A DNA stretch of 64,000 bases from Motilibacter rhizosphaerae (GTDB lineage Bacteria; Actinomycetota; Actinomycetes; Motilibacterales; Motilibacteraceae), in the NCBI RefSeq assembly GCF_004216915.1, contig NZ_SGXD01000001.1, forward strand, positions 744,001 to 808,000, in the 5' to 3' direction. The notes beneath the pieces were generated by a model that made no database searches, was not told where the DNA came from, and was given only the letters and a program-made list of their open reading frames with translations. Numbering within the stretch: position 1 is the stretch's first letter; each line of letters begins with the position of its first letter. The position numbers and the translations under genes were made by a program. Of this stretch, positions 19,885 to 56,077 are shown in pieces.

Positions 19885-19938
19885 ACTGCGGTGATCATGC
19901 AGGTCCTGGGTCCCAAGGACGTGCATGATCACGGCAGT
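19885..19938. repeat. Intergenic palindromic repeat, copy 1
   Basis: A near-perfect palindrome of about 54 bp between the oxidoreductase gene and the next cluster. The outer arms ACTGC...GTGATCATGCA and TGCATGATCAC...GCAGT pair, and the centre CCTGGGTCCCAAGG is slightly imperfect. It is the same element as the copies at 40951-40997, 44173-44218 and 56034-56077. It could form a long hairpin in RNA from either strand; here it lies between two genes of the same direction. Confidence 0.85.
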
Positions 19939-34848: not shown

Positions 34849-35167
34849 GCTACCAGCCGTCGTCCGCGCCCACCCCCAAGTCAACGATAGACATCAACTC
34901 GTCCGGCTTCAGGGGCCGCGACTACGGTCGTCTCGTCGCCCTGGAGGAGATCCCGTTGCCCTTCAACCCTTCCTCCCTGTCATGACTGGTGCTCTGCCGC
35001 CCGCGGCCGGGGCCTCGAGCGAGAGCGCTGGTCGATGACAGCGATGACATGGGGTCTTGACGGCAGCTCGAGTGATGCCTAGGTTCGGCGGCACACCTAC
35101 TTACGACCTGTTGCTAAGTCCAGCGCGGGTCGGCCGCAGTGTCAACGCTGACATCGAAGGGCTCCTC
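34849..35167. promoter_or_regulatory. Intergenic control region between lacI and the sugar importer operon
   Basis: About 320 bp without a gene. It holds a well-formed housekeeping-type promoter on the forward strand (TTGACG at 35057-35062, 17-base spacer, TAGGTT at 35080-35085). Downstream, at 35140-35153, is the 14-bp inverted repeat TGTCAACGCTGACA, which is suitable for a LacI protein, and near 34880 on the lacI side is a related GTCAACG half-site. The order promoter-operator-binding-protein gene fits repression by the LacI regulator. The remaining sequence shows nothing recognisable. Confidence 0.6.
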
Positions 35168-36517
35168 ATGAAGAAGCAAGCAGCCGTCGTGCTGGCCTCC
35201 GCCTTCGCCCTCGCGGCGTGCGGCAGCAGCGGCGGGAAGGACACCACGGCGAGCAGCAGCGCGGCGGGCGGCTCCGCCGGCGTCTCGGCCGCCTCCGGCG
35301 CGTCAGCAGCCCCGGCGGGCGGGGAGGTCGCCGGCGACCTGACCGTGCTCACGCACCGCACGGACCTGGTCAACACCGTGTTCAAGGACTACGCGAAGAC
35401 CTTCGAAGCGAAGTACCCGGAGGTCCACGTGAAGTTCGAAGCCGTCACGGACTACGAGCAGACCGTCCGCACGCGGCTCAACACCAACGACTACGGCGAC
35501 GTCGTCGAGATCCCGGGGTCCGTGACGCCCGACCAGCTCTCGAAGTACTTCGTGCCGCTGGGCACGGTCGACGAGGAGAGCGCGAAGTACAACTGGGTCC
35601 GCCCGCAGTCCTACCAGGGCGAGTCCTACGGGCGACCGATCGTGGGCAACGCGCAGGGCATCCTCTACAACCGCAAGGTGTGGACGGCGGCGGGGGTCAC
35701 CGACCTGCCGAAGACGCCCGACGAGTTCCTCGCCGATCTGCAGAAGATCAAGGACACGCAGAAGGGCGTCACGCCGTTCTACACGAACTACAAGGACGGC
35801 TGGCCCGTCACGCAGTGGATCGGGATGCGCGACTCCATCACGGGCGATCCCGACGTCGACAACGCGTACGCGCACAGCGACGCGCCCTGGGCGTCAGGGA
35901 CCTCCCTCAACATCACCGACACCCTGCTCTACGACATCGTGCACCAGGGCCTGGCCGAGAAGGACCCGACGACCACCAACTGGGAGGCGTCGAAGAAGCT
36001 CATCGGCACGGGCAAGGTCGCGACGATGGCGCTCGGCTCGTGGGCGATCGTCCAGATGCAGGCCGCCGCCCCGTCCAAGGACGACATCGGCTACATGCCC
36101 TACCCGTACCAGAAGGACGGGAAGTTCTACTCGCAGACCGGTGGCGACTACAACAACGCCATCAGCATCCACTCGAAGAACAAGGCCGCAGCCAAGGCGT
36201 GGATCGACTGGTTCTCCGACGAGTCGGGCTACGCCGACCACGAGGGCGGCATCCCGGTCAAGAAGGGTGCTCCGCTCCCGGCGACGCTGTCGGACTTCAC
36301 GAAGGCCGACGTCCAGCTGATCGAGCTCAACCCCGCTCCCGCCGGTGAGGAGGGGCTGTTCAACCGGATCGACCAGAAGTCCGAGATCGGCGTGAACGAC
36401 CCCAAGTACCACCAGCGCATCATCGACGCCGCACGCGGCGCGAAGAAGGAGACGCTGCAGCAGATCTTCGACGACCTCGACGCGAAGTGGGCAGCTGCCC
36501 GCAAGTCCACGACGTAG
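35168..36517 (+). CDS. Sugar ABC transporter substrate-binding lipoprotein
   Basis: A 449-residue binding protein of the carbohydrate family 1. The signal peptide M-K-K-Q-A-A-V-V-L ends in the lipobox L-A-A-C, then a Ser/Ala/Gly linker of about 35 residues. The mature part begins L-T-V-L-T-H-R-T-D-L-V-N and has typical elements such as V-V-E-I-P-G-S-V-T-P and G-N-A-Q-G-I-L-Y-N-R-K-V-W. ATG 35168 is preceded by GAAGGG. It is the first gene of the importer operon and follows the promoter and operator at 35057-35153. Ligand predicted from context: manno-oligosaccharide. Confidence 0.93.
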   Translation: MKKQAAVVLASAFALAACGSSGGKDTTASSSAAGGSAGVSAASGASAAPAGGEVAGDLTVLTHRTDLVNTVFKDYAKTFEAKYPEVHVKFEAVTDYEQTVRTRLNTNDYGDVVEIPGSVTPDQLSKYFVPLGTVDEESAKYNWVRPQSYQGESYGRPIVGNAQGILYNRKVWTAAGVTDLPKTPDEFLADLQKIKDTQKGVTPFYTNYKDGWPVTQWIGMRDSITGDPDVDNAYAHSDAPWASGTSLNITDTLLYDIVHQGLAEKDPTTTNWEASKKLIGTGKVATMALGSWAIVQMQAAAPSKDDIGYMPYPYQKDGKFYSQTGGDYNNAISIHSKNKAAAKAWIDWFSDESGYADHEGGIPVKKGAPLPATLSDFTKADVQLIELNPAPAGEEGLFNRIDQKSEIGVNDPKYHQRIIDAARGAKKETLQQIFDDLDAKWAAARKSTT

Positions 36518-36599: not shown

Positions 36600-37550
36600 A
36601 TGACCGTCGTCATGGGCCGCGCCGCCCGCGAGGCGCGGGGCAGTGGCAGTCCGCGGGGTGGCTCCGGCCGTGCGCGGAAGCAGCCGCTGCTCACGACGCT
36701 GACGCCGTACCTCTTCCTGCTCGTGCCCGTCACCCTGCTGCTGGTCTTCGTCTACCTCCCGAGCATCGACCTCGTGTGGTACGGGTTCAGCGACTACGCG
36801 GGGCTGGGGACGCCCAAGTGGGTCGGACTCGCGAACTACCAGGAGGTCTACCAGCGCCCGGAGCTCTTCCGGGCTTTCTGGGTCAGCCTCTACTACATGG
36901 TCGGCAGCGTCGTGCAGATGGTGCTCGCGCTCTACCTCGCGACCGTGCTCAGCTTCAGCGTGCGCTTCCGCAACCTCTGGAAGGGCATCATCTTCTTCCC
37001 CTTCCTGCTCAACACCGTGGCCATCGCCATGATCTTCCAGTTCGCCTTCCAGGAGAACGGCACGGTCGACGCGGTGCTGTCCCTCGTGGGGCTGGGCTCC
37101 GTCAAGCAGCAGTGGCTGGGCAACACGAGCATCGTCAACTGGTCGATGGTGACGGTGTCGATCTGGCGCTACCTCGGCCTGAACTTCGTCATCTTCCTCG
37201 GGGCGATCCAGTCGATCCCCGGAGCGCTCTACGAGGCCGCGGACCTCGACGGTGCCAGCCGCTGGCAGCAGTTCCGCTACATCATCTTCCCCGGTATCAA
37301 GCCGCTGGTGGCGCTGTCGTTCATCCTCAGCATCGCCGGCTCGCTCGCGGCCTTCGACACGCCGTACATCATCCTCAAGGGTGCCAACGGCACGCAGACG
37401 TTCGTCATCGAGATCGTGCAGCTCGCCTTCGTCGAGTCGCACAAGGTGGGTCTCGCCTCGGCGCTGGCGATCATCCTGCTCGTCATCACGCTCATCGTGG
37501 TCGTCGGGCTCCGGCGCCTGCTCCCGGACGAGAAGGTGAACCTCACGTGA
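36600..37550 (+). CDS. Sugar ABC transporter permease, MalF/UgpA type
   Basis: A 316-residue permease with an Arg/Gly-rich cytoplasmic leader (about 30 residues) and six spans. The EAA loop is A-L-Y-E-A-A-D-L-D-G-A-S. ATG 36600 is preceded by GAGGAGAC repeats; an internal Met at residue 5 is also possible. It is coupled to the next permease by a GTGA overlap and forms the channel with it. There is no ATPase gene in the operon. Confidence 0.92.
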   Translation: MTVVMGRAAREARGSGSPRGGSGRARKQPLLTTLTPYLFLLVPVTLLLVFVYLPSIDLVWYGFSDYAGLGTPKWVGLANYQEVYQRPELFRAFWVSLYYMVGSVVQMVLALYLATVLSFSVRFRNLWKGIIFFPFLLNTVAIAMIFQFAFQENGTVDAVLSLVGLGSVKQQWLGNTSIVNWSMVTVSIWRYLGLNFVIFLGAIQSIPGALYEAADLDGASRWQQFRYIIFPGIKPLVALSFILSIAGSLAAFDTPYIILKGANGTQTFVIEIVQLAFVESHKVGLASALAIILLVITLIVVVGLRRLLPDEKVNLT

Positions 37551-38413
37551 GCGCCGTCCCCGGGACGCCCGCGCCGCTCCGCGACTCGCGGGCACGCGGC
37601 CGCATGCTCAGCGCGCTGAAGTACGCGTCCCTGCTCGCCGCGTCGGCGTTCATGCTCGTGCCGATGCTCGTCATCCTCTTCAACAGCCTGAAGAGCAACG
37701 ACGAGCTCTTCTCCGGCTACCCGTTGGCGCTCCCGCACGGCCTGCACCTCAGCAACTACGCGACGGCGTGGACCGACGGCAACATGGCGCGCGGCTTCCT
37801 CAACACCGGGATCATCCTCGTGGTGTCGCTCGTGGGGAACATCCTCGTCGCGTCGATGACGGCGTACGCGCTGGACCGCTTCGAGTTCCGAGGGAAGAAG
37901 CTGGTGCTGGCAGGGTTCGTCGTCGCCACCCTGATCCCGGGGATCACCACGCAGGTCGCCGTCTTCCAGATCGTCAACCACCTCGGGCTGTTCAACACTC
38001 GCTGGTCCGCGATCCTGCTCTTCCTCGGCACGGACATCATCTCGATCTACATCTTCCTGCAGTTCCTCCGCGGCATCCCCCGCGAGCTCGACGAGGCGGC
38101 GGCGCTGGACGGCGCCAACGTCCTGTCGATCTTCTTCCGGATCATCTTCCCGCTGCTGCGCCCGGCGATCGCCACGGTCTGCATCGTCAAGGGCGTCGCG
38201 ATCTACAACGACTTCTTCGTGCCGTTCCTCTACATGCCCAAACCGGAGCTGCAGACGGTGTCGACCTCGCTGTACGCCTTCCAGGGCCCGTACGGCGGGC
38301 AGTGGGAGATCATCTCGGCCGCGATCGTCATCATCGCGCTGCCCTCGCTCGTGCTCTTCCTGGCGCTCCAGCGCTACGTCTACAACGGGTTCACCTCGGG
38401 CGCGACCAAGTAG
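37547..38413 (+). CDS. Sugar ABC transporter permease, MalG/UgpE type
   Basis: A 288-residue permease, GTG start overlapping the upstream stop. Six membrane spans; the EAA loop reads E-L-D-E-A-A-A-L-D-G-A-N. The end (L-Q-R-Y-V-Y-N-G-F-T-S-G-A-T-K) is the usual short cytoplasmic tail of MalG-like proteins. Partner of the preceding permease in uptake of the sugar bound by the 35168-36517 lipoprotein. Confidence 0.92.
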   Translation: MSAVPGTPAPLRDSRARGRMLSALKYASLLAASAFMLVPMLVILFNSLKSNDELFSGYPLALPHGLHLSNYATAWTDGNMARGFLNTGIILVVSLVGNILVASMTAYALDRFEFRGKKLVLAGFVVATLIPGITTQVAVFQIVNHLGLFNTRWSAILLFLGTDIISIYIFLQFLRGIPRELDEAAALDGANVLSIFFRIIFPLLRPAIATVCIVKGVAIYNDFFVPFLYMPKPELQTVSTSLYAFQGPYGGQWEIISAAIVIIALPSLVLFLALQRYVYNGFTSGATK

Positions 38414-38512
38414 CCCTGCCCCGCCTGCTGGCCACAGCGCCACCGCCCGGCGGCGCCGTAGGCTGCCGTGGTCCCGTCTGCACCCGTCCACCCCCTGCTT
38501 CCGGGAGCTTCC

Positions 38513-40957
38513 GTGCTGCGTACCGACCTCCATGACGGCTGGACCGTCCGCGCCGTGGCCGGGGACCCGCCGCCCGACGTCGCGGCCGCCACCGTCCCTG
38601 CCACCGTGCCCGGCAGCGTGCACACCGACCTGCTGGCCGCCGGGCTGATCGCGGACCCGTACCTCGACCTCAACGAGCAGCTGCTGCAGTGGGTGGGCCG
38701 CACGGACTGGCGCTACGAGACGAGCTTCGCGTGGGCCGGCGGGGCGGACGAGCGCGTCGACCTCGTCCTCGAGGGGCTCGACACCGTGGCCAGGGTGGAG
38801 CTCAACGGGCGCACGGTCGCCGAGACGCGCAACATGCACCGCACCTACCGCGTCGACGTGGGCGCGCTGCTCTCCGTCGGGGACAACACGCTGGCCGTCG
38901 CCTTCCGCTCCCCGGTCAAGGCCGCGGACGAGGCGTCCGAGCAGATCGGCCGGCGCCCCCACGTCAACACCCACCCGTACAACGCCATCCGGAAGATGGC
39001 CTGCAACTTCGGCTGGGACTGGGGGCCCGACCTCGCCACCGTCGGGATCTGGAAGCCGATCAGCCTGCAGGCGTGGTCGGGTGCGCGGCTCGCAGCGGTG
39101 CGCCCGCTCGTCTCCGTGGACGGTACGCGGGGGATCGTCCGCGTCGCGGTCGACGTCGAGCGCGCCGGCCTGGCGGGCGACCTGCCGCTCGTCGCCCGGG
39201 TGGGCGACGTCACGGTCGAGTCCGTCGTGCCTGCCGGCGCCTCCTCCGCGGTCGTCGAGGTCGTGGTCGAGGACGCGGAGCTGTGGTGGCCGGTCGGCCA
39301 CGGCGACCAGCCGCTCTACGACGTCACGGTCGAGCTCGGCGGCGACCTCGACACCTGGTCCGGTCGCGTCGGCTTCCGGACTGTCGAGCTGCGCACGGAG
39401 CCCGACGACCGCGGCACCTCGTTCACCTTCGTCATCAACGGCAGGCCGGTGTTCGTCAAGGGCGCCAACTGGATCCCGGACGACTGCTTCCTCGAGCGCG
39501 TGACGCGCGAGCGGTACGCCGCCCGGATCACGCAGTCGCTCGACGCCGGCATCAACCTGCTCCGCGTCTGGGGCGGGGGCATCTACGAGCAGGACGACTT
39601 CTACGAGCTCTGCGACGAGCAGGGACTGCTGGTGTGGCAGGACTTCCTCTTCGCCTGCGCGGCGTACTCCGAGGAGGAGCCGCTGCGCTCCGAGGTGGCG
39701 GCGGAGGCCCGCGACAACGTCACTCGGCTCGTCGCCCACCCGAGCCTCGTCCTGTGGAACGGCAACAACGAGAACATCTGGGGCTACCACGACTGGGGGT
39801 GGCAGGAGCGGCTCGACGGCCTGAGCTGGGGCGCGGGCTACTACGACGACCTGCTCCCGTCGATCGTCGCCGAGCTCGACGGCACCCGGCCGTACTCCAA
39901 CGGCAGTCCGTACTCCGTAGACCCGGAGCGCCACCCGAACGACCCGGCGCACGGCTCGATGCACATCTGGGACGTGTGGAACCAGCGCGACTACACGGTC
40001 TACCGCGACTACGAGCCGCGCTTCGTCTCGGAGTTCGGCTGGCAGGGTCCGCCGACGTGGGCCACGCTCACCCGGGCGATCTCCGACGAGCCGCTGACGC
40101 CCGAGTCGCCGGGCGTGCTGCTGCACCAGAAGGCCATGGAGGGCAACAGGAAGCTCGAGACCGGGCTCGCGCCGCACCTCCCGCAGCCGCGGGGGATGGA
40201 CGACTTCCACTGGGCGACGCAGCTCAACCAGGCGCGCGCGATCGCCTTCGGCATCGAGCACTTCCGCTCCATCGCACCCCACTGCTCCGGGGCGGTCGTC
40301 TGGCAGATCAACGACTGCTGGCCGGTGACGTCCTGGGCGGCGGTCGACGGCGACGGCCGCAAGAAACCGCTGTGGTACGCCCTCCGCCGGGTCTTCCGGC
40401 CACGGCTGCTCACCCTCCAGCCGCGCAGCGGCGGGCTCGCCGTCGTCGTGTCGAACGACAGCGGCGAGGCGTGGGCGGGGGAGGTCGCCGTGTCCCGGCG
40501 CGCGTTCGACGGCAGGACGCTCGAGTCAGCTGCCCTGCCGTTCAGCGCCGACGCGTGGGGAACCGTCTCCGTCGACCTGCCGAAGGAGCTGACGCTGGCC
40601 GAGGACGGGACGGCGGAGCTCCTCGTCGCGGAGGTGCCGGGCGCCCAGCGGGCGGTGTGGTTCTTCGCCGAGGACCGGGACTCGGCACTGCCCGCGCCGG
40701 AGCTCACGACGGCGGTGGCGCGTACGGGCCGGGGCTATGCGGTGACGGTGACCGCCGGCGCGCTGGCGCGTGACCTCACCCTGCTCGCGGACAAGGCCGC
40801 GGCCGACGCGGAGGTCGACGAGCAGCTCGTCACCCTGCTGCCGGGCGAGTCCGTGGTGTTCGAGGTCAGCACCGCCGCCGAGCTCGACGCCGCCGCGCTC
40901 ACCGGCTGGTCGGTGCTGCGCAGCGCCAACCAGCTCCTCCACCCCAGAACCCCGTGA
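38513..40957 (+). CDS. Beta-mannosidase, glycoside hydrolase family 2
   Basis: An 814-residue GH2 enzyme of the beta-mannosidase group (family about 800-900). The N-terminal sugar-binding domain has V-P-G-S-V-H-T-D-L and G-W-D-W-G-P-D-L-A-T-V-G-I-W, the hallmark of this group. The catalytic acid/base Glu420 is in W-N-G-N-N-E-N-I-W, the nucleophile Glu507 in F-V-S-E-F-G-W-Q-G. It releases mannose from non-reducing ends of beta-1,4-manno-oligosaccharides. No signal peptide. GTG 38513 has GGGAG upstream; GTG 38468 is in frame but lacks one. The TGA stop (40955-40957) lies inside the palindromic repeat at 40951-40997. Confidence 0.92.
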   Translation: MLRTDLHDGWTVRAVAGDPPPDVAAATVPATVPGSVHTDLLAAGLIADPYLDLNEQLLQWVGRTDWRYETSFAWAGGADERVDLVLEGLDTVARVELNGRTVAETRNMHRTYRVDVGALLSVGDNTLAVAFRSPVKAADEASEQIGRRPHVNTHPYNAIRKMACNFGWDWGPDLATVGIWKPISLQAWSGARLAAVRPLVSVDGTRGIVRVAVDVERAGLAGDLPLVARVGDVTVESVVPAGASSAVVEVVVEDAELWWPVGHGDQPLYDVTVELGGDLDTWSGRVGFRTVELRTEPDDRGTSFTFVINGRPVFVKGANWIPDDCFLERVTRERYAARITQSLDAGINLLRVWGGGIYEQDDFYELCDEQGLLVWQDFLFACAAYSEEEPLRSEVAAEARDNVTRLVAHPSLVLWNGNNENIWGYHDWGWQERLDGLSWGAGYYDDLLPSIVAELDGTRPYSNGSPYSVDPERHPNDPAHGSMHIWDVWNQRDYTVYRDYEPRFVSEFGWQGPPTWATLTRAISDEPLTPESPGVLLHQKAMEGNRKLETGLAPHLPQPRGMDDFHWATQLNQARAIAFGIEHFRSIAPHCSGAVVWQINDCWPVTSWAAVDGDGRKKPLWYALRRVFRPRLLTLQPRSGGLAVVVSNDSGEAWAGEVAVSRRAFDGRTLESAALPFSADAWGTVSVDLPKELTLAEDGTAELLVAEVPGAQRAVWFFAEDRDSALPAPELTTAVARTGRGYAVTVTAGALARDLTLLADKAAADAEVDEQLVTLLPGESVVFEVSTAAELDAAALTGWSVLRSANQLLHPRTP

Positions 40958-40997
40958 TCATGCACGTCCTGGGACACAGGACGTGCATGATCACGGG
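40951..40997. repeat. Intergenic palindromic repeat, copy 2 (contains beta-mannosidase stop)
   Basis: A perfect palindrome with 21-bp arms (40951-40971 and 40977-40997) and a 5-base loop GGACA. The left arm begins CCCGTGATCATGCACGTCC. The TGA of GTGATCA serves as the stop of the beta-mannosidase gene, and the right arm ends eight bases before the stop of the convergent binding-protein gene. RNA from either side would fold into a very stable hairpin, so it probably also works as a bidirectional terminator. Confidence 0.9.
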
Positions 40998-41005
40998 GAG
41001 TCGGG

Positions 41006-42364
41006 TCAGCCCTTCGGCCAGCTCGCGTCGATGGCCTTCGTGGTGTCGGCGGTGCTCTGCCCCTCGACCCACTTGACGATCTGCTGCCAGAAGGTACCGG
41101 CGCCGACCGAGCTCGGCATCATGTCCGAACCGTCGAACCGGACGACCGCCTTCGGGTCGTGCAGGATCTGGGCCTGGAGCTTGTCGAACGGCTTGGCGTA
41201 GAGCGACATCGGCGCCAGGTTGTTCGGCGAGATGCTGCCGCCGAACTTGTAGCGATTGACGGCGTACTCCTGGCTCGCGGTGAACTCCTGCACGGCCTGC
41301 ACCTCGGGCCGCTGCGAGAAGGCCACCTCGAACTCACCCGCCACGAGGACGGGCTTCACCGTGGCGGGGTCGACCGCGGGGAGGTAGAAGGCCCAGACGT
41401 CACCGTCCGGCGCGACGTTCGCGCCCTTCGGCCACATCCCGCCGTAGAAGTCGGCCATGCGGTAGAGCGAGCACTTGCCCTCGACGACGCCCAGGCCCGA
41501 GGTCTGGAACGGCGTCGTGCCGATCTTGCCGGCGGCCTCGTGCACGAGCTTGTCGTCCTTGAGGTAGCTGCCGACGAGGTCGAACGTGCTCTGGATGCGC
41601 GGGTCGGCGAAGGGGACCGTGTGCGCGACCCAGCCGTCGTAGACGTCGAGCGGCTGGGTGCGCAGGAGGAAGTCCTCGATCCAGTCGGTGCCCGGCCAGC
41701 CGGTGTTGCCGCCGGATTCGAAGCCGGCGCACCACGGGGCCTTGCCCGACGCCGCGATCTTCTCGGTGAGGTTCCGCATGTCGCCGAAGGTGGCCGGAAC
41801 CTGCCAGCCGTTCTTCGCGAACTCCTTCGGGGAGTACCACACCAGCGACTTGACGTCGGCGGTCAGCGGGATGCCGTACTGCTTGTCCTTGTCCGACCCG
41901 TAGCCGATGAACTCCTTCGACCAGAGGGACGACGCCTTGGCAGCCAGCGCCGGCGGGAGGGGCTTCGCCGCTCCCGACTCGGCGAACTTCTTGATGAGGC
42001 CGGGCTGGTAGATCGTCGCCATGTCAGGAGCGTGCCCGGACTCGACGGCCTTCGTCAGATCGCCCTCGAAGTCGGCGTGCCCGTCCATCTTGACCGTGAT
42101 CCCCGTGCAGTCCATGAAGTTCTGCATGATCTGCGGGATCGCGACGACGTTGTTGCCGGCGCTGTGCATGTAGTTGACCGTCGTGCCGGCGTGGCCCATC
42201 CACGCGGCGTACGGCTTGCAGTCGATGCCGTCCGGCGTACGGCTGGCCGCGTCGACGCCCGTGCCTGCACTGCCGCACGCCGCGGTGACGGCGAGCGCTG
42301 CCGTAGCCGCCGTAGCGGCGAGCGTCCGGCGGAGGAAGCGCCGGGAGCTGACGGGAAGGTTCAT
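41006..42364 (-). CDS. Solitary extracellular solute-binding protein linked to a chemoreceptor
   Basis: A 452-residue binding protein of the sugar family 1. The N-terminus V-S-S-R-R-F-L-R-R-T-L (Tat-like twin Arg) is followed by an Ala/Thr-rich span and T-A-A-C, a weak lipobox. Mature features: N-Y-M-H-S-A-G-N-N-V-V, W-Y-S-P-K-E-F-A-K-N-G-W, G-N-T-G-W-P-G-T-D-W. Unlike the other two sugar-binding proteins, no permease genes are beside it; it follows a methyl-accepting chemotaxis gene by 28 bp in the same direction. It may present its ligand to that receptor (inference). ATG 42364 is preferred over 42379 because GGAG lies 10 bases upstream. Confidence 0.9.
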   Translation of the reverse strand: MNLPVSSRRFLRRTLAATAATAALAVTAACGSAGTGVDAASRTPDGIDCKPYAAWMGHAGTTVNYMHSAGNNVVAIPQIMQNFMDCTGITVKMDGHADFEGDLTKAVESGHAPDMATIYQPGLIKKFAESGAAKPLPPALAAKASSLWSKEFIGYGSDKDKQYGIPLTADVKSLVWYSPKEFAKNGWQVPATFGDMRNLTEKIAASGKAPWCAGFESGGNTGWPGTDWIEDFLLRTQPLDVYDGWVAHTVPFADPRIQSTFDLVGSYLKDDKLVHEAAGKIGTTPFQTSGLGVVEGKCSLYRMADFYGGMWPKGANVAPDGDVWAFYLPAVDPATVKPVLVAGEFEVAFSQRPEVQAVQEFTASQEYAVNRYKFGGSISPNNLAPMSLYAKPFDKLQAQILHDPKAVVRFDGSDMMPSSVGAGTFWQQIVKWVEGQSTADTTKAIDASWPKG

Positions 42365-42392
42365 GGTGGAGGTCTCCATCGTCGTGCGGAGG

Positions 42393-43979
42393 TCAGGCGG
42401 TGACGAAGCGGTGGACCGCGTCGCGCAGGTGCTGGGCGGTCGAGCTGAGGTCGTCAGCAGCCTGGCGGGCGGCCTTGCCGTCGTCGGCCGCGGTCGTGAC
42501 CGAGCCTGCGAGGTCGTCGATGGTGCCGGCGATCTCGTGCGTACGCATCGCGGCCTCGGTGACGTTGCGGCTCATCTCGCCGGTCGTCGCGGTCTGCTCC
42601 TCGACGGCGGCGGCGATGGAGATCTGGTGCTCGCTGATCTCCGCGATGATCCGGCTGATGCCGCTGATGGCCTCCACGGCCTGGATGCTCGTGCTCTGGA
42701 TCGCCTCGACGCGGCGCGCGATGTCCTCGGTGGCGCTGGCGGTCTCGCGGGCCAGGTCCTTCACCTCGCTCGCGACGACGGCGAAGCCCTTGCCGGCCTC
42801 ACCAGCGCGGGCGGCCTCGATGGTGGCGTTGAGCGCGAGCAGGTTGGTCTGTTCGGCGATCGCGGTGATGACCTTGACGACCTCACCGATCTCGGCGGAG
42901 GAGGCGCCGAGCTTGGTCACCGTGTCGGTGGTGTTCTCGACGGCCTCGACCGCCTCGCTGGCCACGCCCGCGGCCTTGTTGGCGCTCTCCGAGATCGACT
43001 GCATCGCGACGCCGGTCTCCTCGGCGCCCGCGGCGAGGGTCTGCACGTTGGCCGAGACCATCTCCGCGGAGGCGGTGACCAGGGACGCGCGGTCCGCCGC
43101 GGTCGCGGTCGAGCTGCCGATGCGGCCGCCGGAGGCCTGGACGCGCTCCGAGGCCTCGGTGACGCGGTCGGCCGCCTCCGTCAGAGCGGCCACGGTGTCG
43201 CGCATGGCCTGGCGGGCCTGCTCGTAGCCGTGCGCCATCTGCCCGATCTCGTCGTCGGACGGCACGAGGGCAGCGGCGGTGAGGTCGCCGGTCGCCATGC
43301 GGGCGAGGGCGCTCTGCACCTTGCGCACCGGGCCGACGATGGCCTGCGCCACGACGAGCGCGAGCGCCACGGAGATGCCCAGGCCGAGGAGGAGCACGAT
43401 GACGAGCAGGCGGATCGCGCTCGACTTGGCGCGCTGGATCTGCAGGCTGCCCTTGATCACCGCGTCGGACTCGATCTTCTCGATGCGGTCGAGGTTCTCG
43501 CTCGCGGCCGAGATCGCGCTGTTCTCGTTGGCGCGTGAGCCCTGGAAGGTCGCGACATCGCCCTTGCGGCCGGCGGGGAGCATCGTCGAGTCGCGGGTGT
43601 CGCGGTAGAACCCGACCGCGCTCTGGATCACGTCGTTGGTGCCCGCGCGGTGCGTGCTGTGCGCTGCGTACGCCGCCCACGCCTTGTCGTAGGCCGTGTC
43701 CGCCGCCTTGATGTCGGCCTCGGCCTGTCGGCGAGAGATGTCGTCGCTCAGGTTGATGTAGCCGAGGAGGGTGTTGTCCTCCTGCAGTAGGTTGTTGCGC
43801 GCCTCGTTGAGGCGCAGCGCCTGCTGCATGTGGCTGTCGGAGATGACCTTCGCGGTGTGCGCCACCGAGCGCAGCTGCAGGACACCGACGGCGCCCACGC
43901 CTGCGGTCGCGAGCCCCGCGACCAGGGTGACGACGAGCAGCTTTGCCCGTACGCCCAGATTGCGCCAACTAGCCAACAT
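42393..43979 (-). CDS. Methyl-accepting chemotaxis protein (chemoreceptor)
   Basis: A 528-residue receptor. One membrane span near residues 11-36, a periplasmic four-helix-bundle sensor (about 37-188), a second span (about 190-212), a HAMP domain (about 213-265), and the cytoplasmic signalling hairpin, whose tip is fully conserved: [19 protein letters not shown] and G-F-A-V-V-A-S-E-V. It ends without a CheR-docking pentapeptide. Being directly upstream of a solitary binding protein, it likely senses a sugar through it. ATG 43979 starts just before the first span. Confidence 0.94.
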
Positions 43980-44360
43980 CCCGCACCCCTCCGAGTCCTG
44001 CGCTGTCCAGAGACGATCGGCGCCGGCCGCCGAGACCTGAGGGGAGTGCAGAGGGCGCGGGGGAGGGGCCCAAGACGTGCATGATCACGGGAGAAGAGGG
44101 CGAGCGGCCCACAACGTGCATGATCACGGGGAAGGGGAGGGGCCCCGCGCGGGGTCGGCGCCACCCCTCCCACCGTGATCATGCAGATCCTGGGCGCCCA
44201 GGACCTGCATGATCACGGGAGAAGAGGGCGAGCGGCCCAGGACGTGCATGATCACGGGCAAGGGGGAGGGGCCCCGCGCCGTGCGCGGGGCCCCTCGGAC
44301 GAGCGTGCTGCGGATGAGCGGCGCAGCAGGTGAGCAGTGGTGCGACTCGCTACGCGCGGG
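43980..44360. repeat. Gene-free repeat field with palindrome copy, half-sites and direct repeats
   Basis: About 380 bp with no gene. It holds one full palindrome (44173-44218, two 23-bp arms, one mismatch pair), three isolated half-sites reading CGTGCATGATCACGGG (44076-44091, 44115-44130, 44243-44258), and a direct repeat of about 73 bp: 44079-44151 is repeated at 44207-44280 with few changes. The remaining sequence is G-rich linker. It resembles the remains of repeated duplication of the palindromic element seen elsewhere in the window. Confidence 0.85.
44266..44296. terminator. Strong hairpin downstream of the beta-helix protein gene
   Basis: Perfect 14-bp arms: GAGGGGCCCCGCGC (44266-44279) and its complement (44283-44296), with a 3-base loop CGT. 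It lies 65 bp past the stop of the reverse-strand gene at 44361-47006 and upstream of the chemoreceptor gene on the same strand. A typical stable GC hairpin of a high-GC terminator, without a T-run. Confidence 0.7.
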
Positions 44361-47006
44361 TCACGGGTAGCTCACCACGTCGACCGGCACCGTGGCCGAC
44401 CCCTGCGCCGTGGCGCCGACGTCGTTGATCACGTGGGTGATCGTGCCGTTGCCGCCGAGGCTCACCGTCGCCATGTCGTGGAACTTCACGCCGGCGGTGT
44501 TCGGGACCTCGAACGCGTGGTACGCGTTGACCGAGGTGTTGACGTTGAAGTAGCAGTACGACCCCAGGCCCCACGCCTCGTGGGTGGTGACGCCCGGCGC
44601 GACCTTGTACGCCGCGTACCCGTTGGTCGTGGAGGTGCTCATCCAGGCGGCCTGGTTGGGGACGTCGTACGGCATCTCGTTCTGGAAGAAGATCGTGCGG
44701 CCGCGCTCGCCGTTCCAGAGCACCTCGAACTTCTGGTAGTGCTCGACGAACAGACCCGTGGCGATGACGTCGTTGCCGTTGACCGTGAGCCCGTTGGCGG
44801 CGGGGTTCGTGGTCCAGCCCACACCGGCGCCGTGGTCAGCGCGCCACGCCCAGATGTGGTCGATGATGACGTTGCCGCTGTTGACGACCAGGCTGTTGGT
44901 CGCGCTGCCCGGTCCGGCACCGCCGATCCGGAAGAACACGTCCTGGATGCTCGTCGGGTTGCTGGCGTGCGCGCCACCGGACCCGGCCGGACCGACCTGC
45001 AGCAGGGTGTCCGAGTTCGTGGTCCCTGCGTCGAAGAGCACGCCCTTGATGCGGACGCCGTCGACGTCAGCCACGTGCATCGCGTCCACACCGCCGTCGG
45101 GGATCAGCGTCGGCATGCCCACGCCGAGGACGGTGGTGCCGGCCTTCGTGACGTTGAGCGTCTGGTTCAGGTGGTAGACGCCCGGGGTGAAGAACAGGTT
45201 GCAGCCCTGGGCGAGGTAGCCGTTGAGCGTCGCCGCGCTGTCCGTGGGCTTGGCGACGTAGAACGTGCTCATCGGCACCGAGGTGCCCGGGGTCGAGCCG
45301 CCCGCCCAGCTGGCCTGCGACGCGTTCGTGCGCAGGGACGGCAGGAACACGCGGTACTTGCCGCTGCTGTCGACGTAGAGGTACGGCACGTCGCGCGACA
45401 CGGGGGTCGTGGACAGCGTCGTGAAGGGCGGGTTCGGGAAGCTCTGCGCCGGAGCGCCGCTCACCCCGCTGAACACCATGTTCCAGTTGGACCCGCTCCA
45501 GCTGCCGAAGCCCGAGTCCCGCGAGTACCACTGCTGCTGGCTCGCGGACGCGACCTGGCCGTCGACCTTCGTGTCGGCGATGTAGCCGCCCGAGGCCCAG
45601 CCGTAGCTCGCCGGGAAGAGGTCGAGGTTGCCCTTGACGTGGATCCGGCGGAACGGTGCGGCCTGCGCGACCGCCCAGCGGTCCTCGCCACCGTTCGCGG
45701 TGATGGCGAGGTTCTCGGCCGAGCGCCAGAAGTTCTGCGTTGCGTTGCCCGTGCCGTCGAAGGCGTCGACCGTGACGTTGCCGACGATGTTCGTGTCATC
45801 GGGGTTCTGGCCGAGGCCGAGGATCGAGGTGTAGTAGCCGATGTTGGCGTAGACGCCGTTGTAGGTGCCCGGCTTGAAGAACAGCGCGTCGCGGCGAGTG
45901 CCGAACTGGTTGAGCTTCTGCGCGTTGAAGACCTCGTCGAGCTTGGCCTGGATCGTGGCCGCGCTCATGCTCGGGTCGAAGACCGCGACGTTCGCCCCGA
46001 AGTCCGGGGTGTCCGACTGGGTCGGGCAGGCCGCCGGCGTCGTCCCACCGCCGCTGCCGGTGGTGTAGGCCTGGATCTCCCAGAGGCTGTAGCCGTACTG
46101 GGTGGCGCGGGTGGTGCCGTAGACGCGGAGGTAGCGCCCGGTGCCGGTGACGTTGAGGGTCTGGGTGCCGCCGGTGCCGGTGGTGGTCGAGTAGATGGGA
46201 GTCCAGGTGGCGGCGTCGGTGGAGGTCTGGAGCTGGAAGGCCTTGGCGTAGGCGGCTTCCCACTGCAGGACGACCTGGCAGAGGGTCTGGGGAGTGCCGA
46301 GGTCGATCTGGATCCACTGGGGGTCGGTGGCGGCGCTGGACCAGCGGGTGCCGGGGTTGCCGTCGACGGCGGCGCTGGCGGGGGTGCCGGCGTTCTCGGT
46401 GCTGGAGGCGGTGGCGGTCTTGCCCTGGGCGGCGTTGGTGGTGCCGCACGTGCCGCCGGTGCCGCCGCCGGTGGTGCCGGTGGTGCCGTAGACCTGGAAC
46501 TCCCACAGGCTGTAGCCGTAGGTGGTGGCGCGGGCGGTGCCGTACATGCGGACGTAGCGCCCGGTGCCGTTGACGGGGAGGGTCTGGGTGCCGCCGGTGC
46601 TGGTGGTGGTGCTGTAGACGGTGGTCCAGGTGGCGGCGTCGGTGCTGGTCTGGATCTGGAAGGCCTTGGCGTAGGCGGCTTCCCACTGCAGGGTGACCGA
46701 GGTGACGGTGGCGGTGGCGCCGAGGTCGACCTGGAGCCACTGGGGGTCGGAGAACGCGCTGGACCAGCGGGTGCCGGTGTTGCCGTCGACGGCGTTCGCC
46801 GCAGCGGAGCCGGCGTTCTCGGTCGAGGAGGCGGTCGCCGTCTTGCCCTGCGACAGCAGCGCATCAGCCGCGTGGGCGGGAGAGGTCGCCGTGATGGCGG
46901 CGACCGGGGCGAGCAGCAGGCCGGCGAGGGCGGCCGCGACCCGGCGCCCCCTCCTGCCGACGGACGTCCTCGTACGTGCTCGAGGACGGAGGGGTGCCAC
47001 AGGCAT
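44361..47006 (-). CDS. Secreted protein with two discoidin (F5/8 type C) domains and a parallel beta-helix domain
   Basis: An 881-residue secreted protein. Signal peptide about 1-46 (twin Arg clusters, then hydrophobic, ending A-H-A-A-D). Discoidin/CBM32-type domains lie at about 50-175 and 190-315, each starting Q-G-K-T-A-T-A-S-S-T-E-N-A-G and containing W-E-A-A-Y-A-K-A-F-Q; they bind carbohydrates. A right-handed beta-helix follows (about 335-881), with A-L-F-F-K-P-G-T-Y, D-H-I-W-A-W-R-A-D-H-G and E-V-L-W-N-G-E-R-G-R-T. As I recall, related actinobacterial proteins are sometimes labelled adenylyl cyclase, but no cyclase motif is visible. A polysaccharide-acting enzyme or adhesin is more likely; the substrate is unknown. 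Confidence 0.85.
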   Translation of the reverse strand: MPVAPLRPRARTRTSVGRRGRRVAAALAGLLLAPVAAITATSPAHAADALLSQGKTATASSTENAGSAAANAVDGNTGTRWSSAFSDPQWLQVDLGATATVTSVTLQWEAAYAKAFQIQTSTDAATWTTVYSTTTSTGGTQTLPVNGTGRYVRMYGTARATTYGYSLWEFQVYGTTGTTGGGTGGTCGTTNAAQGKTATASSTENAGTPASAAVDGNPGTRWSSAATDPQWIQIDLGTPQTLCQVVLQWEAAYAKAFQLQTSTDAATWTPIYSTTTGTGGTQTLNVTGTGRYLRVYGTTRATQYGYSLWEIQAYTTGSGGGTTPAACPTQSDTPDFGANVAVFDPSMSAATIQAKLDEVFNAQKLNQFGTRRDALFFKPGTYNGVYANIGYYTSILGLGQNPDDTNIVGNVTVDAFDGTGNATQNFWRSAENLAITANGGEDRWAVAQAAPFRRIHVKGNLDLFPASYGWASGGYIADTKVDGQVASASQQQWYSRDSGFGSWSGSNWNMVFSGVSGAPAQSFPNPPFTTLSTTPVSRDVPYLYVDSSGKYRVFLPSLRTNASQASWAGGSTPGTSVPMSTFYVAKPTDSAATLNGYLAQGCNLFFTPGVYHLNQTLNVTKAGTTVLGVGMPTLIPDGGVDAMHVADVDGVRIKGVLFDAGTTNSDTLLQVGPAGSGGAHASNPTSIQDVFFRIGGAGPGSATNSLVVNSGNVIIDHIWAWRADHGAGVGWTTNPAANGLTVNGNDVIATGLFVEHYQKFEVLWNGERGRTIFFQNEMPYDVPNQAAWMSTSTTNGYAAYKVAPGVTTHEAWGLGSYCYFNVNTSVNAYHAFEVPNTAGVKFHDMATVSLGGNGTITHVINDVGATAQGSATVPVDVVSYP
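46080..46860. repeat. Intragenic duplication encoding the two discoidin domains
   Basis: The two domain-coding halves (about 46080-46440 and 46500-46860) are close to identical at DNA level over long runs. For example, the 30-odd bases encoding A-Y-A-K-A-F at 46237-46268 recur at 46661-46692. Identity extends to third codon positions, so the duplication is recent or kept similar by gene conversion. Confidence 0.75.
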
Positions 47007-56000: not shown

Positions 56001-56033
56001 TCCCTGGCGCGGGAGTCGCGCCCCCACCTCCCC

Positions 56034-56077
56034 CGTGATCATGCACGTCCTGGGCTCCCAGGACGTGCATGATCACG
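56034..56077. repeat. Intergenic palindromic repeat, copy 4 (contains ABC permease stop)
   Basis: A perfect palindrome with 21-bp arms and a 2-base centre (CT). The left arm begins CGTGATCATGCACGTCC. It lies between convergent genes. The reverse-strand TGA (56073-56075) of the ABC-2 permease gene is part of the right arm, as also seen for the beta-mannosidase at copy 2. Confidence 0.9.

Follow-up and report, generated by a model that had tools for sequence, protein, structure and literature searches.

The window analyzed here is a 64,000-nucleotide stretch of the 4.3 Mb genome of Motilibacter rhizosphaerae (G000; the comparison genomes are designated G001, G057, G214, and so on). Positions 42393-43979 on its minus strand encode a methyl-accepting chemotaxis protein, MCP1, assigned from its 528-residue ORF and Pfam domains. 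It is followed on the same strand by the gene for SBP1 (protein P0001, 41006-42364), a sugar-type solute-binding lipoprotein with no permease gene beside it. The SBP1 ORF runs from 42379 to 41006 when read from its first ATG, a start that would add 5 residues; translation more likely begins at the second ATG (42364), which is preceded by GGAG at a distance of 9 nt. With this start, the gap between the MCP1 stop and the SBP1 start (42365-42392, minus strand) is 28 bp, and it contains neither a promoter-like nor a terminator-like site. A scan of 40900-44400 for sigma-70 promoters and T-run terminators found none. Right after the SBP1 stop there is a near-perfect inverted repeat (40951-40999), a terminator- or repeat-like hairpin that lacks a T run and was negative in the terminator scan. 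The nearest permease ORFs in the window, identified by Pfam, are at 36600-38413 (plus strand), behind an SBP gene of their own (35057-36517), and are separated from SBP1 by a convergent glycoside hydrolase gene (38468-40957, plus strand). The sequence-only reading had described an MCP gene and, 28 bp behind it, a sugar-type SBP gene, with no permease adjoining the two; the ORFs bear this out, and the coordinates are exact. Upstream of MCP1 on the same strand is a gene for a large protein (44361-47006) in which Pfam recognizes two F5/8 type C domains but gives no further strong match.

The domains of MCP1 found by Pfam are a four-helix bundle (4HB, PF12729, 7e-10), HAMP (PF00672, 1e-10), and the MCP signalling domain (MCPsignal, PF00015, 5e-33). 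With the membrane helices judged by eye, the layout is an N-terminal membrane helix, an extracytoplasmic four-helix bundle, HAMP, and the signalling domain, so that MCP1 has the extracytoplasmic sensor, HAMP, and signalling domain of a receptor of the MalE-Tar kind. It extends 134 residues past the hairpin tip, and the cheA-operon MCP 133, which places the two in the same length class. CheA is present in G000, with one match, and also in G057, a genome considered below.

A flagellar-type promoter-like site, TCAG-N15-GCCGATCG, is located at 44014-44040 on the minus strand and ends 34 nt ahead of the MCP1 start codon. It resembles, imperfectly, the flagellar/WhiG promoter consensus, given as TAAA at -35 and GCCGATAA at -10 (PMC8325347). 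The corresponding pattern, TCA-N16-GCCGA, was found upstream of 10 of the 16 chemotaxis units tested in G000, including cheA and both units in which an SBP gene is paired with an MCP gene, compared with 403 of 20,000 random pieces (2.0%). Other spacers, shifted by one to six bases, gave 0 or 1 of the 16 units; thus, a site of the TAAA/TCAA...GCCGAT type associated with flagellar sigma factors (FliA/WhiG) occurs at a fixed spacing before chemotaxis genes. The binomial tail for this enrichment is 8e-14, or 2.5e-12 when MCP1 is left out; since the genes used for the count had also served to derive the pattern, the figure overstates the case, but the enrichment persists without the MCP of the window. 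The count dropped 5 of the 19 MCP-matching loci, which are fragmentary (L019 and L022-L025), and the start sites of the remaining loci are approximate. The whole window contains 9 matches, with 3.2 expected. One of them, at 44155-44178 (minus strand), is farther upstream of MCP1, overlaps a palindromic repeat, and is probably coincidental. The MCP1-SBP1 unit thus looks co-regulated with the chemotaxis genes. Separate promoters with unrelated regulation had been set as the finding that would tell against a unit; no TCA-N16-GCCGA match precedes SBP1 alone, which speaks for the unit.

MCP1 might instead feed a CheA output other than flagellar taxis, such as type IV pili or c-di-GMP. In some actinobacteria, pilus genes are under the control of WhiG/FliA-type sigma factors (PMC8325347), and a GGDEF gene is found near the second SBP-MCP pair of G000. 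Against this, there is only one CheA match in G000, and the signalling domain of MCP1 is in the length class of the cheA-operon MCP, so that we regard a different output as very unlikely.

What kind of protein is SBP1? Pfam at an E-value of 1e-3 placed P0001 in none of its families, including SBP_bac_1 and SBP_bac_8, whereas the G057 counterpart matches PF01547 at 4e-24. Compared with the NCBIfam models and the PDB, the SBP1 sequence gives weak matches to sugar SBPs of the AcbH/NgcE type. An AF2 model, with 23 relatives in the alignment, has a mean pLDDT of 79.9 and best matches AcbH, with Z = 39.0 and an rmsd of 2.6 over 374 aligned residues, a fold that is not diagnostic of the ligand. The top five Foldseek matches to the model are all glucose-binding proteins. 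The assignment of SBP1 as an SBP is therefore based on the NCBIfam and PDB sequence matches, a paralogue, and the fold, rather than on Pfam filing. Cys35 is in a lipobox-like context, judged by eye, as are cysteines in the SBPs of the second pair, and 91% of relatives have Cys at that site. SBP1 is a secreted protein, probably lipid-anchored outside the membrane.

The paralogue, 41% identical to SBP1, is on contig 3 (G000:C3:19858) and is followed by two BPD_transp_1 permease genes. Matches to the SBP1 family at 1e-30 were found in 166 of 393 genomes of the class. Among the best 28 loci from this search, the closest relatives of SBP1 in the class, all 28 adjoin a gene for an AglF-like permease, and so do 24 of the 26 relatives taken from named genomes. 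'AglE/AglF-like' is a provisional label for the family and its permease. Since the relatives are linked to permeases, SBP1 is a transporter-type SBP that has no permease neighbours. Eight ORFs flanking transporter-linked relatives were scanned for a clue to the ligand, and no alpha-glucosidase was found among them. A further candidate, in G019, was rejected, because one SBP fragment there precedes a permease gene and the other runs off the contig.

The sensor region of MCP1 (210 residues) was searched against the 393 genomes of the class, and matches were obtained in two, G000 itself and G057, which belongs to another family of the same class; in both, an SBP gene adjoins the receptor gene. 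The G057 MCP is 60% identical to MCP1 over 522 residues, with 50% identity in the sensor region and 46% in its periplasmic part. The adjacent G057 SBP is 43% identical to SBP1, the ATG of its gene overlaps the MCP stop, and no permease is beside it; G057 furthermore holds a permease-linked SBP paralogue of its own. There is no TCA-N16-GCCGA match upstream of the G057 MCP. Of the 5 genomes searched in the order of the window, G000 alone has the pair and the orphan SBP, and of 341 genomes in the family of G057, G057 alone has the pair. It was found in 0 of 396 genomes drawn from the phylum and in none of the 22 genomes of the family of G101, both of these searches having been performed without a positive control. 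Being confined to two of the genomes searched, the MCP1-SBP1 pair is rare.

In a 50-row tree, which left out 12 rows (L029, L047, L050-L057, L067, and L106), the orphan SBPs of G000 and G057 form one clade with support of 98/91, on long branches that are able to attract each other; the SH-aLRT support is 93 in 62 rows. The count of conserved residues excludes one duplicate row (L067) and 14 rows of remote SBPs. All 45 permease-linked relatives keep G346 and F413, and both orphan SBPs have V at both positions. SBP1 keeps 70 of 78 near-invariant positions of the family and the G057 orphan 64 of 78. Since most of the conserved residues are retained, the orphan SBPs could have residual transport function.

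These data bear on two alternatives in which SBP1 serves transport. In the first, SBP1 serves solely as an additional binding protein of an importer encoded elsewhere, for instance with the contig 3 permeases, and its position next to MCP1 is incidental. The paralogue with its two BPD_transp_1 permeases and the 70 conserved positions in SBP1 are what such a protein would lead one to expect. However, G057 shows the same pairing and likewise has a permease-linked paralogue, the orphan SBPs form a separate clade, and the chemotaxis promoter-like site that precedes the MCP1-SBP1 unit is not found upstream of the paralogue operon; transport as the only role therefore seems most improbable. In the second, SBP1 has a dual role, signalling through MCP1 and also feeding the contig 3 permeases, like maltose-binding protein in Escherichia coli. 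The retained core of SBP1 would be suited to this, and permeases of the same family are present in both genomes that bear the pair, but each genome has a separate permease-linked paralogue, and the orphan SBPs share changes at invariant sites. We consider a dual role rather unlikely. The sequence-only reading had named a permease pair served elsewhere in the genome as evidence against a dedicated unit. A candidate pair is present on contig 3, and SBP1 has kept most of the conserved positions, so this part of the concern stands; the permeases have an SBP of their own, and the reading of a dedicated unit stays supported.

A second pair in G000 has the same arrangement with a different SBP. At L116:5771-8543 (G000:C2:769770-772542), a lipoprotein-type gene of the ChvE family, SBP2, is directly upstream of an MCP gene, MCP2, with a spacing of 19 nt from the favoured start. 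G000 has 18 MCP-matching loci besides MCP1; a Pfam scan that covered one or more neighbours of each found an SBP at this pair only. G000 SBP2 scores 489 bits with the NCBIfam ChvE model (NF040907, cut-off 460 bits) and matches the ChvE structure at 2e-121. The sensor region of MCP2, searched against the 393 genomes, has orthologues at 1e-42 or better in G001, G002, and, twice, G214. The SBP2 proteins of G214 score 462 and 506 bits with the ChvE model, and those of G001 and G002 score 453 and 458 bits, just below the cut-off. The ChvE-type gene is immediately upstream of MCP2 in 5 of 5 copies in four genomes, G000 included, and the neighbours that were scanned contain no permeases. Thus, an SBP gene and a transducer gene adjacent on one strand, with no permease among the scanned flanking genes, occur in the window, in G057, and in all five copies of the second pair. 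Three of these five operons (in G002 and, twice, in G214, outside the genus of the window) lack the TCA-N16-GCCGA pattern. Weaker matches to MCP2 in G389, on contig 8 of G002, and in G003 (1e-11 to 1e-17) have no adjoining SBP2 match. The G389 locus (L136:1394-4937) has tandem MCP genes, one of which distantly matches the MCP2 sensor region; upstream on the same strand (L136:5241-7384) are two ORFs that by eye resemble trehalose-phosphate synthase and phosphatase.

Because the MCP1-SBP1 pair recurs in G057, and a second type of pair is conserved in four genomes, we have rejected chance adjacency as an explanation. The second pair is also relevant to the possibility that MCP1 senses its ligand directly and that SBP1 is co-transcribed with it for another reason. 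4HB domains can bind small ligands directly, and the G000 and G057 receptors share only 46% identity in their periplasmic parts, but the same arrangement is kept in 5 of 5 copies of the separate ChvE-MCP pair. We regard direct sensing by MCP1, with SBP1 co-transcribed for another reason, as very unlikely.

The two G214 copies (L134:6977-9946 and L135:6298-9101) have receptors that are 98-100% identical and SBPs that are 75% identical. The SBP genes differ by 93 amino acid-changing and 25 silent codons, while 4 of the 7 receptor differences are at residues 108-113. DNA identity is mosaic along the SBP gene, with windows ranging from 67 to 97%, and mostly 93-100% along the MCP gene. This pattern suggests that the receptor is kept constant while its binding proteins vary, or else that the receptor half has undergone gene conversion. 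The G214 copies are the most telling case for a broader and tentative proposal, that the sugar-taste repertoire of motile actinobacteria may be modular, with a constant receptor and exchangeable lipoprotein SBPs, drawn from unrelated transporter families, setting the ligand.

The closest precedents differ from the pairs described here in gene arrangement, ligand, or output. In E. coli, maltose-binding protein and Tar are, as here, a sugar SBP and an MCP with a four-helix bundle; the SBP is encoded within the importer operon and Tar elsewhere, whereas SBP1 and MCP1 are one unit with no adjoining permease. The archaeal BasB-BasT and CosB-CosT genes form operons that are not known to include a permease gene. 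In a pull-down network of Halobacterium salinarum, BasB and CosB were co-purified with the transducers BasT and CosT, substrate-binding proteins paired with a transducer like SBP1 (PMC3579733). Those archaeal systems recognize amino acids and osmoprotectants, while the present pairs are bacterial, with sugar-type SBPs of two families. ChvE of Agrobacterium mediates aldose chemotaxis and signals to the kinase VirA (PMC4086400); SBP2 is of the same family, but its lipoprotein-type gene is beside an MCP gene with no transporter genes adjoining. In the CuaD-CuaS-CuaR system of Ruminiclostridium cellulolyticum, a second, non-transport sugar SBP is encoded beside a sensor gene and a paralogue serves the importer, but the output there is a histidine kinase that controls transcription, rather than an MCP (PMC10384115). 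SPH1118 of Sphingomonas sp. A1, a polysaccharide-binding SBP, is required for chemotaxis; unlike SBP1, it is encoded with ABC permeases and is also needed for assimilation, and its MCP is described as postulated (PMC7055323). The docking of ligand-bound SBPs on MCPs is established, and this use of SBPs is described as general across receptor types (PMC9602780).

Given this established docking, the single unit, the presence of CheA, and the length of MCP1, which is like that of the cheA-operon MCP, we estimate a probability of about 0.8 that MCP1 and SBP1 are a dedicated chemosensory pair. The genomic evidence, namely the G057 pair, the orphan clade, the promoter-like site, and the ChvE-MCP pair, is best read as the dedicated sugar chemotaxis unit that had been proposed from the sequence. 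In the mechanism that we propose, the MCP1 and SBP1 genes would be one transcription unit within the motility regulon, and SBP1 would be exported and probably lipid-anchored outside the membrane. Binding of the sugar would close SBP1, which would then dock on the extracytoplasmic four-helix bundle of MCP1. Docking would change the activity of CheA and subsequently flagellar rotation, with the ligand presumably acting as an attractant. SBP1 would have arisen from the SBP family of CUT1-type ABC transporters, keeping most of the conserved core while becoming the partner of one receptor.

What is the ligand? Just upstream of the G057 pair, on the same strand, L103:10310-16858 encodes a pullulanase and an alpha-amylase that carries a CBM20 starch-binding domain, a hint that sugars from starch are the attractant. 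From these two adjoining genes, our only basis, we infer that the ligand may be an alpha-glucan-type sugar.

The mechanism itself is already known; what would be new is the recruitment, in Actinobacteria, of SBPs from two families as dedicated partners of MCPs. These pairs stand apart from their known relatives in their host group, in the SBP families used, and in the flagellar-type promoter site. A literature search found no actinobacterial SBP-MCP pair, and it is on this search that the novelty depends. Most chemoreceptors have no assigned ligand, and actinobacterial chemotaxis is little studied at the receptor level; a survey of it, in the portion available, covers pathway classes and not ligands (PMC10746217). 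A receptor with its own SBP makes the ligand question tractable, because ligand screens can be run on the soluble SBP itself. The pairs are also a clean setting for studying the conversion of transporter SBPs into partners in signalling, and the TCA-N16-GCCGA motif could serve to predict the motility regulon of the order.

Finally, intergenic palindromic repeats built on CCCGTGATCATGCACGTCCTGGG are found in the window at 19892-19931, 40951-40999, 44074-44257, and 56032-56075. There are 11 copies of the repeat core, TGATCATGCA, in the window and 4 in 110 kb of other G000 loci, and it was not found in the loci examined from G001-G004, G057, and G214. The repeats are possibly a strain-specific REP-like or terminator element.
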